IMG/VR virus record: IMGVR_UViG_3300027659_000060
Span: 1 to 45,299 of that record
Source: a virus
Reading direction: 5' to 3' (one strand)
Length of the DNA: 45,299 nt
The notes below the pieces were generated by a model. It worked only from the letters and a program-made list of their open reading frames with translations. It had not been told where the DNA came from and did no database searches. Below are positions 21,804 through 45,299 of the stretch, piece after piece (positions within the stretch are counted from its first letter, which is position 1; every line of letters starts with the position of its first letter). Made by a program: the position numbers and the translations under genes.

Positions 21804-22499
21804 GTGAGTATCAAAAAATTAGTAACTGTCCTTGTTGGGTTTGCATTTTTTTCCGTTGGTTGTGGTTTACTCTTTGCTGTTGGAACTTCGTCTGCATCAT
21901 CAGAAGACAAAGTAACCATCTGCCACCGAACTAGCTCACAGACTAACCCTTACGTCAGAGAAACCGTAGATCGTTCCTCTATCAAAGAGGGCCACTCACT
22001 GCACGTTGGACCAATTTGGTCTGATGGAATTGAACCTTTTTGGGGCGACATCATTCCCCCATTTGAAGATTTTGCCGGGTATAACTGGACTGAAGAAGGT
22101 CAGTCTATCTGGAGTAACAAGTGTAATTTAGTCTCGCCAACTCCAACACCAACTCCAACTGAGACTGAGAACGAGACTGAGAGTCCAACTCCAACTCCTA
22201 CTGCAACCGAGACAGAGACTCCTACTCCTACTCCTACTCCGTCAGAGACAGTAACCGAGACTCCAACACCAGAGCCAACGGAGACAGAGACTCCTACTGC
22301 GACTCCTACGCCTACCACCACTGAGACTGTTGTCCCATCTCCTTCACCAGAAGAGACAACCCCAGCCCCAGCAATAAGTCAGGGCACGCCTCTACCAGGT
22401 GAACTACCTCAAACTGGTTTTCCAGCATTACTGATTGTCATTGTTGGATCTTTGATGATTATTACTGGAATTGCCACAGTGGTTGCTGCTACCGCATAA
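21804..22499 (+). CDS. LPXTG-type cell-wall-anchored protein
   Basis: The 231-residue protein starts at GTG 21804. An N-terminal signal peptide (LVTVLVGFAFFSVGCGLLFA) is followed by a ~75-residue domain with two cysteines, KVTICHRTSSQTNPYVRETV to SIWSNKC, similar to an ICH-T...NPY module of actinobacterial surface proteins. Residues ~115-190 are a Thr/Pro/Glu stalk. The end is a sortase signal: LPQTG at 201-205 and a hydrophobic helix, but no basic tail (it ends VVAATA). The protein should be exported and linked to, or held at, the host envelope. It lies at the end of the rightward block, eight bases from the converging genes. Confidence 0.75.
   Translation: MSIKKLVTVLVGFAFFSVGCGLLFAVGTSSASSEDKVTICHRTSSQTNPYVRETVDRSSIKEGHSLHVGPIWSDGIEPFWGDIIPPFEDFAGYNWTEEGQSIWSNKCNLVSPTPTPTPTETENETESPTPTPTATETETPTPTPTPSETVTETPTPEPTETETPTATPTPTTTETVVPSPSPEETTPAPAISQGTPLPGELPQTGFPALLIVIVGSLMIITGIATVVAATA
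22138..22320 (+). repeat. Low-complexity Thr/Pro/Glu-coding repeat
   Basis: Degenerate hexamers of the type ACTCCA/ACTCCT and GAGACT/GAGACA repeat throughout, encoding the PTPTPTETE stalk of the LPXTG protein. Such tracts expand and contract by slippage, so stalk length may vary between related phages. Confidence 0.7.
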
Positions 22500-22507
22500 A
22501 AGATAGT

Positions 22508-23050
22508 TTAGTAAGTCTGCTCAAACTTTAAGTGGTTGATCGGACCACGGACGCCTGTGCTGAATTCAGCTGATGCTTTTACCGCTTTAATTACGCGGTT
22601 CTTCGGCGACAGGTCGTCCGTGCTAAACAGCGATCCAAGAGCAGCGAGAGATCCATTACCAATTGCCATGTAGGGCTGCGTTGCTTCGTGGACGCTGTAG
22701 TCAGACCCGATTAGGAACAGTCTTCCTAGTGTTCCAACTAGGATTTCTGTTCCTTCTTCCATCTTCTCTCGTGTAGCTGTGCCTGGAGTATTTTCAAGGG
22801 TTTCAGCGATGTCTTGAACAAACTCAACAGACATAAAAGAATAAAGGTTACTAAGCGAAGGCACAGGAGGAAGGGAAGTATTATGAAGAATATTAAGCAC
22901 CCGAAGACTCTGAGAAACCCCGACAATATAGTCACCGTTAACCGCAATCTTTGGAGTTGAGATTGTCACGCAAGAACTATCGTCGCTAGCCTCTGAATCT
23001 GAGGCCATATGGATAATGCCATTGTGCACAAGCGCCGCGATGCAAGTCAT
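22508..23050 (-). CDS. Proteasome-beta/HslV-like Ntn hydrolase
   Basis: I choose ATG 23050 over the upstream in-frame TTG 23170 because it has GAGAGGA and makes Thr the second residue (MTCIAALV). After removal of Met, Thr1 is the N-terminal nucleophile, and the sequence gives D17 (HMASDSE) and K33 (TPKIAV), exactly the catalytic triad numbering of proteasome beta subunits. Later YMAIGNGSLAALG and TGVRGP fit the fold. The protein has 180 residues, close to HslV size, and no ATPase partner is encoded nearby. It may be a stand-alone protease or amidohydrolase. It has its own promoter (23088-23117) and converges on the LPXTG gene. Confidence 0.75.
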   Translation of the reverse strand: MTCIAALVHNGIIHMASDSEASDDSSCVTISTPKIAVNGDYIVGVSQSLRVLNILHNTSLPPVPSLSNLYSFMSVEFVQDIAETLENTPGTATREKMEEGTEILVGTLGRLFLIGSDYSVHEATQPYMAIGNGSLAALGSLFSTDDLSPKNRVIKAVKASAEFSTGVRGPINHLKFEQTY

Positions 23051-23087
23051 GCTATTTGTGTCCTCTCGGCTGCCTGTATTTAAGATA

Positions 23088-23117
23088 ATTCTACCAATAC
23101 TTACGGTCTTCCCATAA
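23088..23117 (-). promoter_or_regulatory. Minus-strand promoter for the Ntn hydrolase
   Basis: On the minus strand TTATGG (23117-23112), 18 bases, TAGAAT (23093-23088); TGG just before the -10 adds an extended element. A small hairpin (GAGCC 23127-23131, GGCTC 23140-23144) lies between it and the whiB stop. It supports the start at 23050 rather than 23170. Confidence 0.5.
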
Positions 23118-23162
23118 CACCCTTTAGAGCCCTTAGAACGGCTCACAGGGCCTCCTAAAGAC

Positions 23163-23561
23163 CTATTCAAGCCCTCTGGACCAGTTGTGTAGGTCTACAT
23201 CTGTCTGGTCCCAGATATCTTCTGTCCGCTTCTCCAATTCTGCGGATGCAGTACTCAGGTAAAGCTCAACTGGCTTCGGGGGATTCCCCGCCCTTATCGC
23301 CCTTGCCCGCTCTTTGTGGGCCTTTCTCAGAGCCGATACAGTCAGCCCTCCCCAGATACCAAAACGCTCCCCAGTCTGGAAAGCAGAAGCCAGACATTGG
23401 GGAGCAACAGTGCACTCAGTAAGACATATTTCTCGCTCAGAGAGGCTGTGACGACCGGGCTCAGGAAACCAAGACTCCGGATCGCTGCTACAGACTGCGT
23501 CATCTCGCCAGTGCGGATTTTTGCCTATTACCTCGGACAAGTCTTTATTCGGATTTGTCAT
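23163..23561 (-). CDS. whiB: WhiB-family iron-sulfur transcription factor
   Basis: The 132-residue protein starts at ATG 23561, overlapping the RuvC-like stop by four bases. It has the four cluster cysteines C24, C46, C50 and C56, and the family signature FGIWGGLT at 68-75 followed by a basic C-terminal segment (LRKAHKERARAIRAG) that contacts DNA. WhiB proteins are confined to actinobacteria and their phages and bind sigma factor region 4; phage copies can repress host whiB genes. The middle pair is spaced CX3C (CLTEC) whereas the family norm is CX2C. The C-terminal extension beyond residue 95 is also unusual. Confidence 0.85.
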   Translation of the reverse strand: MTNPNKDLSEVIGKNPHWRDDAVCSSDPESWFPEPGRHSLSEREICLTECTVAPQCLASAFQTGERFGIWGGLTVSALRKAHKERARAIRAGNPPKPVELYLSTASAELEKRTEDIWDQTDVDLHNWSRGLE

Positions 23562-24013
23562 ACCGGAAGCACGCCATCGCCCTTCCAACCAAGTTGGATT
23601 GCTCGGTACATACCATGTCTAATAGCATCATTAGCATGACCAGCGCCGCCCCTGTGCCACACGCCCGCATCCTTAATCATCTGATTAGTCACTAGACGCT
23701 TAGCTTGCGATGGGGTCTGCTCCACGTACGGAACACCATTTTTCTCTGAAAGATAGTGGGCTACCCCGAGAAGTCGCAAAGACCAGGGGCTCTGGGTCTT
23801 CTTCCCAGTCTCTGGAGTGATGATAAAGGACTCACACACGACCTCAGTAATGCCAGAGTGGGAGTCATTGACTGTGTTCTCTAGCCATTCCCAGGTCTCT
23901 TGAACAGTATTCTCTGCACTCTCCATGAGGACCAGAGAAGACTGACTGACATAGACCACGGCACACCCTGATTTCAAACCAGGATCTAGGCAGACTAAAG
24001 TACGGGGTTCCAT
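23558..24013 (-). CDS. RuvC-like Holliday junction resolvase
   Basis: The 151-residue protein has the RNase H-fold pattern of RuvC: CLDPGLKSGCAVV with the first catalytic Asp near residue 10, VCESFII with a Glu around 60, and GHANDAIRHG with a terminal Asp near 127. Resolving branched replication or recombination intermediates before packaging is the expected role. It lies 42 bases downstream of the DNA polymerase gene and overlaps whiB by four bases. Confidence 0.75.
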   Translation of the reverse strand: MEPRTLVCLDPGLKSGCAVVYVSQSSLVLMESAENTVQETWEWLENTVNDSHSGITEVVCESFIITPETGKKTQSPWSLRLLGVAHYLSEKNGVPYVEQTPSQAKRLVTNQMIKDAGVWHRGGAGHANDAIRHGMYRAIQLGWKGDGVLPV

Positions 24014-24055: not shown

Positions 24056-25855
24056 CTATTCGTACTTTTCGCCCCACTTGAGCAGAGGACCTTCAGACTC
24101 AGCAAGAATCTTGACTGAGTAGTCCGTTGTGTTAGACATAATATCGGGAATCTCACGCATAGCCTCATCTGCCAATTCGGCAGGAAGATCCACAAGGATT
24201 TCATCGTGTACCGGAACTACGAAGAACTCTCCGTATCCAGCCGAGTCAAGGTCAATCAACGACTTCTTAAAGATCTCGGCTGCATGACCTTGGAGTAGGT
24301 AGTTGACCAGACTGTACGTGCGGTCATTGTCACAGGGAAGCCTGCGCCCAAATGGCGTCAGTACATAGCCCTGTCCTTCGTACTTCTCTCGGTCAGACCC
24401 AATCCCTTCAACCCGCTTCATCATGTCCGCAATTCCTGGGTACTGAGTGTTGATAGCGTCCGCCACAACTTCCATCTGCTCAAATGGCACACCGGCACTA
24501 GCTGCCATCTTCGCAACCCCGGCCCCGTATGCCTTACCGTACATGACGTTCTTGACCAGCCCACGCCTCTTGTCCTTCTTTGAGAACTCAGGGTCTCCGT
24601 ACACAGCGGCTCCCATAGTTGTAAAGAAGTCACCGCCGTGCTTGTCCGCTTCGTTGAACGTCTCAATCAAGTCAAGGTCGTCTGAGAAGTGTGCCATCAG
24701 GCGCATTTCAACCTGAGCAAAGTCTGTACTGATCAGTACGTTGCCCTCTCGTGGGATAAACATATTTCTTACCAGAGCAGATCCACGAGGAAGTTGCTGT
24801 AGGGGAGGATTAGAAACTGACATACGACCAGTTCGTGCACCAAGAGTATTAATCTCGGCGTGCACAAGACCGTCCACGTCCATCGCTTCAATACAACCCT
24901 TGAAGTAAGTCTCAGCAGTCTTGCCGGACTCACGCATATCAATCACACTTTGCGCAAGAGTTGAAAGTTCTGGGCTTCCAGTGTTAACCCAGAAGTTGAG
25001 GTCGTCTTTAGTAACCTTCGGATTACCACGTGCTGTGCGCTCACGGATCTGTCCACCAAGGGTTTCAATCAACCCACCGAGTTGGATAGTGGAAGCAACA
25101 TTGATTCCGTACTTCTCTTCGCCCCACGTGATGACTTCATCATGGACCTTGTCAAGTCGCTCGTACTGCTCGCGTGCATAGTCTTGGTCAATCCGCATAC
25201 CACGGATTTCCATGCTTGATGCAATGTGGCGAACCGCCATATCTAAGTCGTACGCAGATCTAAATCTTCCGTCACCTGTAATCAGCGGAGAGAACTTGTC
25301 AAAGATTCCACGAGTAAGAACTGTGTCAAGCGCGCCGTACTGCCAGTACTCGGGAAGGTTGATTGGGACATCTCCCCATCCCCAGTTATTCTTTGCCATG
25401 ATTTCTTTGAGTGCGCCCTGACCAAACGAGGCCCTACGGTCTAAGTGCTTATCTGACAAAGCTTTAAGAGCAGCTGACTGGAGCGGGTCAATGATTCGTG
25501 ACGCAATCATCGTGTCGTGTGTGCGGTCAGTTGGGAAACGATAGCCGTCTCCATGAACGTACAGCCACCTTGTTTCGAACGCTAGGTTGTGCGTCATCCA
25601 CTCGCCGTCCCAGCGGTCTAACGTCTCAAGCGCAAGTCCCCGCCAGTCTTTCCACGGAATAGACCAACCCTGCTGTGCATCGCCAAACTGGATGAGTCTG
25701 AGTTCTGCCCCAGCATCCCAAGGATTAAGACCAGAAGTTTCTGTGTCCACAGCCAGACCACCGCGCACAGTACCAAGCCAATGCTTGAACTCGGCGGCAT
25801 CGTCCAGATTCTCAACGAGGTGTACTTTTACAGCCCGGAGATTAAATGCTGTCAT
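24056..25855 (-). CDS. polA: Family A DNA polymerase with 3'-5' exonuclease
   Basis: The 599-residue protein has an N-terminal proofreading domain starting with VDTETSG (D37, E39) and a complete family A polymerase domain: motif A LISTDFAQVEMR with D378, motif B RRGLVKNVMYGKAYG, and motif C PVHDEIL with H550-D551-E552. The 5'-3' exonuclease domain of bacterial PolI is absent, as is common in phages. The motif B helix has Tyr in the YGKAYG position, and the first residue after motif A's aspartate is Phe. It is the likely replicative polymerase, paired with the primases on the other strand. A promoter-like TTGAAG/TAAGGT lies just upstream. Confidence 0.92.
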   Translation of the reverse strand: MTAFNLRAVKVHLVENLDDAAEFKHWLGTVRGGLAVDTETSGLNPWDAGAELRLIQFGDAQQGWSIPWKDWRGLALETLDRWDGEWMTHNLAFETRWLYVHGDGYRFPTDRTHDTMIASRIIDPLQSAALKALSDKHLDRRASFGQGALKEIMAKNNWGWGDVPINLPEYWQYGALDTVLTRGIFDKFSPLITGDGRFRSAYDLDMAVRHIASSMEIRGMRIDQDYAREQYERLDKVHDEVITWGEEKYGINVASTIQLGGLIETLGGQIRERTARGNPKVTKDDLNFWVNTGSPELSTLAQSVIDMRESGKTAETYFKGCIEAMDVDGLVHAEINTLGARTGRMSVSNPPLQQLPRGSALVRNMFIPREGNVLISTDFAQVEMRLMAHFSDDLDLIETFNEADKHGGDFFTTMGAAVYGDPEFSKKDKRRGLVKNVMYGKAYGAGVAKMAASAGVPFEQMEVVADAINTQYPGIADMMKRVEGIGSDREKYEGQGYVLTPFGRRLPCDNDRTYSLVNYLLQGHAAEIFKKSLIDLDSAGYGEFFVVPVHDEILVDLPAELADEAMREIPDIMSNTTDYSVKILAESEGPLLKWGEKYE

Positions 25856-44082: not shown

Positions 44083-45299
44083 TCAGATAAGAATTCTAAC
44101 CAACTTGGATAGCGATGCAGAGATTTCAGCTTGGGTTAGCTGGCGATCTCCGGACATGTACTTGTTCAAAAATTGCACAGCCTTTGCTTCTTCATCGTCT
44201 GCGGACAAGTTGTTTACCTTCTGTATCAGCTGATCTATGAAGTTCTTCAACTCTTCTGGAAGCTCTGAGTAGCGGAGACTCTTGTCTTCACCTAGAGGAA
44301 CACCGATGTTGTAGACGACGTCACCAAGGATGGCGTAGTCGTCACGAAGACGCTCAGCAAGACGGGCGTCACCTACCTCGGTATCTGTTCGGTCAAGAGC
44401 AAGGATCAATTTTTGCCCTGCTATCTTCGCGGCGTTAAGGTCACCACCAACAAGTTTGTCGTCAATCTTTTTGATGTCAGCGACTTTAGAGTCAGTTTTC
44501 TCATCTCCTGCGTCTGATCGTGCTTCTTCAACATCATCTTTCAGACGAGCTAGTACTCCTCTAAACTTTCCTTCAGCGTCTCTAGGATGCGCCAACGGAT
44601 CAAAGTCCTGTGGTCCTGTAGCAAATGCCTCAAACTTTGCGTTTGCTTCCGAGTAACGCTGAGCAAGAGTCTTGACTCCCATGCTCTCAAACTTAGCCTG
44701 AATGTCTTCAGCAGAAGCAATCAGAGCCGCCTCTTGCCACTTACCAGGAAGTGAGTCTGTCGCCTTCAGCGCACGAGCACGAGAGATGATGTGCTTCTTC
44801 GCGGCTTCTTTATCCTTGGCACGACCATAAGCTTGGATTGCATTGCGCAAGTCACCTTCATTTTCAATCGGGTAAGAACCGTCGGGCATTGCTATGCCTT
44901 CTTTGGCGTACTTGGCACGAGTCTCTTCGCTGTAGTCGCGGAACTCAGCAATGCTAGAAGACGCAAGTTCTTCAAACTTTGTCCGAACTTGCGTAGCACG
45001 ACGGTCTAGTGACGCCATGCGCAGAGCCTCAAGCTTGTCGCGTTGTGGCCCCTCAAGGCGAGCAACTCTAAGTGCCAACTCGTCCAGGACTGAGTTGTCA
45101 GCAGTCTTGTACTGCTCAAGCAAGGTTGCAGTACCAGCAGCTACCAGCGAGAGAAGTGACCCAGAGGCAACGAATGCGCGGGTTACTGGGAAGCCAGGAA
45201 CGTTGACTGAGCAAACAGCAACCATTTCCAAGCGACCGTTGACTGGACGCCAGTCTCCGGAAGGAGCGGATGCACGAACGGCGCGGATTTGTTCTGGGC
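44083..45299 (-). CDS. Capsid maturation protease, 5' end beyond the right edge
   Basis: The frame is open from the right edge (first complete codon at 45297) to TGA 44085-44083, giving 404 residues; the internal TTG at 45231 is not the true start. The first residues read IRAVRASAPSGDWRPVNGR and then LEMVAVCSVNVPGFPVTR, the pattern I know from actinophage capsid maturation proteases (SGDWR...LELva..VN.PGFPv). The catalytic part is outside or just at the edge. The remaining C-terminal region is helical and charged, with a HPRDAEGKFRG motif seen in related proteins. It lies upstream of the capsid gene, as usual. Confidence 0.75.
   Translation of the reverse strand, partial: PEQIRAVRASAPSGDWRPVNGRLEMVAVCSVNVPGFPVTRAFVASGSLLSLVAAGTATLLEQYKTADNSVLDELALRVARLEGPQRDKLEALRMASLDRRATQVRTKFEELASSSIAEFRDYSEETRAKYAKEGIAMPDGSYPIENEGDLRNAIQAYGRAKDKEAAKKHIISRARALKATDSLPGKWQEAALIASAEDIQAKFESMGVKTLAQRYSEANAKFEAFATGPQDFDPLAHPRDAEGKFRGVLARLKDDVEEARSDAGDEKTDSKVADIKKIDDKLVGGDLNAAKIAGQKLILALDRTDTEVGDARLAERLRDDYAILGDVVYNIGVPLGEDKSLRYSELPEELKNFIDQLIQKVNNLSADDEEAKAVQFLNKYMSGDRQLTQAEISASLSKLVRILI

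Follow-up and report, generated by a model that had tools for sequence, protein, structure and literature searches.

Many phages encode proteasome-like subunits for which neither an ATPase nor a substrate is known, and a gene of this kind standing alone in a viral genome raises the question of what enzyme it encodes and how such an enzyme could act during infection. The locus analysed here lies in a 45,299-nucleotide stretch of DNA (positions 1 to 45,299 of the IMG/VR record IMGVR_UViG_3300027659_000060), the whole of which is referred to below as the window. The first-pass annotation, made from the letters alone, proposed a phage-encoded proteasome-type Ntn hydrolase and offered several roles for it, ranging from proteolysis of host regulators to head processing.

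The window and its proteasome-like gene

The window holds an actinophage genome that is incomplete and that encodes an ordinary head protease. Both the capsid protein and the DNA polymerase are nearest to those of the Actinomycetia phage DSL-LC01 (approximately 46%), followed by those of Arthrobacter and Microbacterium phages, and these affinities, together with the presence of WhiB, indicate an actinophage origin. A cellular contig was rejected, since the capsid, tail, polymerase and WhiB genes are all actinophage-like.

The Ntn gene is a minus-strand ORF that begins MTCIAALVHNGIIHMASDSEA and encodes a protein of HslV-like size, as had been proposed (Table 1). Comparison with relatives upholds its coordinates and the ATG at 23050 as its start. 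At 188 homologous loci, the start codon is followed by Thr (182) or Ser (6), where the start was taken as the nearest Met, Val, Leu or Ile before Thr, Ser or Cys, a rule biased towards a Met-Thr/Ser outcome. Independently of this rule, 67 of 100 representatives have an in-frame stop ahead of Met-Thr with no intervening start codon. The TTG at 23170, an alternative upstream start that would have left the threonine internal and unprocessed, was rejected on both grounds, and the threonine is thus regarded as N-terminal.

Counted in the processed protein, Thr1, Asp17 and Lys33 are found where the first-pass annotation had placed them and are invariant among the aligned homologues. Gly43 is placed like the oxyanion-hole glycines, Gly45 of HslV and Gly47 of the proteasome, to which it corresponds in the alignment. 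The window protein is very probably catalytic. Most relatives carry Cys or Ser at residue 131, beside conserved glycines, where the window protein has Asn (72-sequence alignment), and this substitution, together with the long branch of the protein, may possibly mean that the predicted activity is lowered or altered.

Table 1. Features of the Ntn hydrolase locus and of related genes, in window positions
Feature	Position	Strand	Basis or remark
Proteasome-like Ntn hydrolase CDS	22508..23050	-	180 aa, stop codon included; ORF read, profile and model
Shine-Dalgarno-like GAGAGGA	23061..23067	-	10 nt before ATG; read from sequence
Thr1 codon (expected nucleophile once Met is removed)	23045..23047	-	Thr in 72/72 aligned homologues
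Asp17 codon	22997..22999	-	72/72 aligned homologues
Lys33 codon	22949..22951	-	72/72 aligned homologues
Gly43 codon	22919..22921	-	Gly 67/72, Ala 5/72 in alignment
WhiB-family regulator	23163..23588	-	112 bp upstream of Ntn gene; PF02467 1.1e-13, phrog_472 1e-15
RuvC-like resolvase candidate	23558..24013	-	phrog_1981 (unknown function) 1.9e-13; phrog_1770 Holliday junction resolvase 0.0053
DNA polymerase A	24056..25855	-	PF00476 3.8e-54
Capsid maturation protease, C-terminal part, and following region	44083..45297	-	cut by contig end; 65% identity over 83 aa to DSL-LC01 protein

Fold and family

The profile search that had been suggested as a check gave a divided result. PHROG 1040, annotated as "peptidase HslV family", matches the full length of the protein (4.9e-18), whereas the Pfam Proteasome match (0.062, 13.4 bits) fell below the cut-off of 22.4 and none of the NCBIfam models, including those for HslV, gave a match even at an E value of 10. 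A search of the PDB with the window sequence alone returned no match; a 13-sequence family profile compared with solved structures retrieved HslV (1m4y, 1.8e-15), the beta-proteobacterial proteasome homologue BPH (5ovs, 1.5e-12) and bacterial PrcB (approximately 1e-7). PADLOC gave no match.

Structure prediction, the other suggested check, yielded the four-layer fold of a proteasome subunit. The single-chain AlphaFold2 model (72 homologues; pLDDT 94.2, pTM 0.90) contains the strands and four helices of compact proteasome-like subunits, with the helices at residues 49-58, 69-86, 134-143 and 149-163 and the final strand at 172-176. Foldseek ranked BPH first and HslV second, and VIA-align gave Z scores of 21.5 for BPH, 20.0 for HslV and 18.7 for the Mycobacterium tuberculosis proteasome beta subunit, these three being the best among 1000 aligned PDB chains, all of which had Z of at least 8. 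The VIA-align matches listed include no non-proteasome Ntn hydrolases, which carries no weight with regard to those enzymes. On the evidence of the model, the predicted architecture is genuinely that of a proteasome-fold Ntn hydrolase, and profile, fold and conservation together lend good support to the proposal of a proteasome-type enzyme whose Thr1 is exposed by methionine removal, with the removal itself presumed.

Relatives and distribution

The unusualness that the first-pass annotation had implied did not hold, given the existence of PHROG 1040, the survey of Fuchs, Alva and Lupas (2021; PMC8665760) and relatives in hundreds of viral contigs; the window gene is a further actinophage member of a known phage proteasome-like family. 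Searches with tblastn found 25 phage records, each at most 35% identical to the window protein. Alignment-based scans of IMG/VR, built on smaller alignments, as the 13-sequence one is too divergent for a pattern scan, recovered 245 relatives in the first and at least 510 in the second (the two sets overlap), while an IMG/VR scan with the single window protein recovered no relative. Relatives also occur at 13 bacterial loci, including rhizobia, Azospirillum, Metabacillus and Acholeplasmatales, and on 24 plasmids, including rhizobial and Streptomyces plasmids; most plasmid matches are rhizobial, and cellular actinobacterial homologues are represented by two Streptomyces plasmids. In the tree, whose bootstrap support is not fully settled and in which the branch of the window protein is long (1.36), the protein groups with the viral record L014 (98/91) and with a freshwater clade (97/83).

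Together with its DSL-LC01 counterpart, the window gene shows that the family is carried by actinophages, and more distant "protease" genes of the family are already present in Microbacterium and Arthrobacter phages. The mild surprises are the presence in actinophages, reported absent in 2021 but already shown by DSL-LC01 and these more distant genes, and the recurrent WhiB neighbourhood described below. An uncharacterised protein of 207 aa from Gordonia phage Daredevil (BFVD A0A345MIR8) is predicted to adopt the same fold (TM 0.80, 18% identity), and this modelled match indicates that further actinophages would carry unannotated members.

Several relatives depart from the compact form or its usual setting. 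In two marine phages (L008:4001-5167 and L010:4001-4867), the Ntn domain is extended by a long stretch at its C-terminus, giving proteins of 388 and 288 aa, respectively. Homologues from Acholeplasmatales, Izimaplasma and other Bacilli MAGs (L173 and L175-L178) form a separate long-branched clade of MSVVVAIK.. type with Ser as nucleophile. A homologue on Sinorhizobium americanum plasmid B (NZ_CP013109.1; L180:5001-5546) lies within the nitrogen-fixation region, flanked by nifQ and an iron-sulphur assembly gene, with nifS farther on.

Gene neighbourhood and transcription

The Ntn gene lies, as first described, between the gene for the WhiB-family regulator and an LPXTG-type ORF, in which the motif LPQTG was found. 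The candidate promoter of its own that had also been described was not reproduced: a sigma-70 scan of positions 22300-23700, covering sigma-70 consensus sites only, found no promoter-like site on the minus strand and a single match overall, on the other strand, where 1.5 would be expected by chance. An own sigma-70 promoter was consequently rejected. Since the upstream WhiB gene, on the same strand, ends 112 bp away and in turn shares 31 bp with the RuvC-like gene, read-through is the simpler reading, and the Ntn gene is more likely to be co-transcribed with the WhiB and RuvC-like genes from the PolA/RuvC-like/WhiB run. As it ends this run, its product would probably be made together with replication and host-regulation proteins.

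Mode of action and alternatives

The statement that the window holds no ATPase partner was confirmed. A search for AAA_2 (HslU/ClpX-type) ATPases gave no match in the window or in DSL-LC01, and none in 18 of a further 21 virus records, a weak match below the cut-off in the record G006 being counted as none; the clear matches, in L021, L138 and L164, lie 16 kb or more away from the Ntn gene. An ATPase may possibly be encoded elsewhere in the genome, the window being incomplete.

The reading that we prefer, and hold with roughly even confidence, is that of a Met-processed, ring-forming threonine peptidase that, during infection, acts either independently of ATP or together with a host unfoldase. 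Host methionine aminopeptidase would take off Met1, as is generally understood for HslV and BPH, and because this step would expose Thr1, no propeptide would be needed. BPH and HslV are ring-forming peptidases, and by analogy the subunits may assemble into a closed ring or double ring. Needing no ATP, its chamber might cut peptides or unstructured segments of certain proteins of the host or the phage; alternatively, it might borrow a host AAA+ unfoldase, both options being suggested by the lack of a detectable phage unfoldase. Action on host regulators, one of the roles first proposed, is possible. In the open-access literature, we found no study assigning a function to a phage-borne member.

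A more specific scenario, considered unlikely, is that the phage ring docks on the host unfoldases Mpa/ARC or ClpX/ClpC, where it would replace or compete with the host proteasome or Clp peptidase and thereby redirect host proteolysis. HslV has an AAA+ unfoldase as its partner, none of phage origin was seen in the window, the fold is near that of the mycobacterial proteasome beta subunit (see above) and actinobacteria often possess proteasome ATPases of their own; against this, relatives occur in hosts of many phyla, whose ATPases differ.

It is quite improbable that the protein is a non-proteolytic Ntn enzyme, either a monomeric amidohydrolase or a connectase-like protein ligase. Connectase demonstrates that proteasome homologues can turn into monomeric ligases (PMC8665760), but the window protein has the compact group-I form with all four helices and is nearest to BPH and HslV.

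The genomic contexts of the family bear on a third alternative, in which the peptidase would help the ordinary prohead protease by trimming or removing a protein of the head or of packaging. Among 101 representative lineages, 11 have the Ntn gene next to that for the large terminase, directly after it in eight (L016, L028, L033, L036, L039, L096, L103 and L107) and before it in the others (L019, L072 and L169), a context that is not mentioned in the 2021 survey (PMC8665760). In the Planktophila phage E7 (OX376640.1, L005:7500-8036), and also in OX376641.1, it directly follows the portal gene; E7 and F5 are the first cultured Planktophila (Nanopelagicales) phages, and the main text of their description does not name the Ntn gene (PMC10202952). 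These linkages hint at another role in some phages. For the window, however, the gene lies near WhiB and PolA, approximately 19-22 kb from the head genes, and the end of a separate capsid maturation protease lies at the contig end. The head-processing role that was first suggested thus becomes unlikely here, and the Ntn protein as the sole head protease of this phage was rejected on the same evidence. The terminase-linked L016 likewise encodes a separate prohead protease (phrog_80), of which L096 and L103 carry homologues. An auxiliary packaging function of the window protein is regarded as very improbable; for the terminase-linked relatives, a part in head processing is possible.

The neighbourhood of WhiB raises the last alternative. 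The Ntn gene recurrently adjoins or lies near WhiB in several actinophage lineages and in two gene orders. In L014 and the freshwater clade, WhiB is encoded on the same strand approximately 0.8-1.6 kb upstream, a few small genes lying in between (L014 and L094 share a common gene order and were counted as one lineage), whereas WhiB is directly downstream of the Ntn gene in DSL-LC01 and in L134, L137, L147-L150, L152, L153 and L155. The gap between the two genes is 112 bp in the window, 45 bp in DSL-LC01, approximately 233 bp in contigs of the L147/L148 type and 1.0-1.6 kb in large contigs of the clade to which the window belongs. Every tested record of the freshwater clade carries WhiB, and for this reason the clade appears to be actinophage-borne. 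In this freshwater actinophage clade, a second protease gene (phrog_3677, L094:7001-7933) is found 0.4 kb downstream of the Ntn gene.

The probability of such proximity under random placement was 0.006 for the window, 0.04 for L014 and 0.002 for DSL-LC01, and the combined value was approximately 0.002 with lineages thinned to one record each and unlinked ones included, or 0.008 with a smaller set; these values presume independent lineages and were calculated once the pattern had been seen, and are thus no more than suggestive. That the peptidase and the WhiB iron-sulphur regulator form a functional pair in actinophages, with the peptidase determining how long WhiB-type regulators of the phage or host persist, is given a very slim chance; if true, it would represent a viral module of regulated proteolysis that lacks an ATPase of its own. 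WhiB-linked proteolysis, in the sense of the peptidase acting on phage or host WhiB-type regulators, is by a little the least probable of the alternatives, as WhiB is unlinked to the Ntn gene in L138, L160, L164 and E7, WhiB is frequent in actinophages, relatives in other phages (G006-G009) are without it, and adjacency may reflect module structure alone.

In larger phages, the Ntn gene is situated among nucleotide-metabolism genes (ThyX, DHFR, RNR and MazG), and the contexts are too varied for naming one function. Nevertheless, the WhiB-linked and terminase-linked contexts constitute testable starting points, and a member from a culturable actinophage could reveal the part played by the chamber in infection.

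Comparison with known proteasome homologues

Among enzymes of known structure, BPH (5ovs/5ovt) is the top structural match, with 172 residues aligned, and to our knowledge it too acts without a known ATPase; it differs in being a cellular gene of beta-proteobacteria and in sharing only 21% identity across the structural alignment. HslV (ClpQ) has in common with the window protein the fold, the triad, the logic of a Met-Thr start and the size. In contrast to HslV, the window protein has no HslU gene in the window, scores below every HslV model and falls outside the HslV branch of the tree, and a true HslV was rejected on the model scores and the lack of HslU in the window.

The HslV-like gene of DSL-LC01 (WJZ48484.1) is likewise carried by an actinophage, the one with the closest capsid protein and polymerase, and adjoins WhiB. 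However, it belongs to another sub-clade, is 27% identical, has an MTTI start and a longer C-terminus, and is arranged in the order Ntn-WhiB rather than the WhiB-Ntn order of the window.

The survey of Fuchs, Alva and Lupas described 22 new proteasome homologues, including PPH and AAH, which were found without a co-occurring AAA+ partner and without a gene context pointing to function (PMC8665760). PPH is, like the window protein, a proteasome-like subunit carried by phages, but it has approximately 140 aa and lacks helix H2 (PMC8665760); it was rejected, given that the window protein has 180 aa and that H2 is present (helix 69-86). AAH occurs in many phages and in actinobacteria, with none reported in actinobacteria-specific phages (PMC8665760). 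The AAH/PHROG 1040 proteins share with the window protein a compact subunit of 170-200 aa with four helices, the Thr1/Asp17/Lys33 triad, the Met-Thr start and the lack of an adjoining ATPase gene, and they are spread over phages, rhizobia and Streptomyces. The window protein differs in being carried by an actinophage, a group in which the 2021 survey saw no AAH, in its identity of at most 40% to any relative found and in the Asn that replaces the Cys or Ser of most of them. Its AlphaFold2 model shows helices H1-H4 and lacks the C-terminal S12/H5, which is the compact group-I form of AAH, and the tree groups it with rhizobial, Streptomyces and phage relatives, a placement that agrees with AAH. 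By size, helices and distribution as described, the window protein fits the AAH subfamily, of which it is a putative member.
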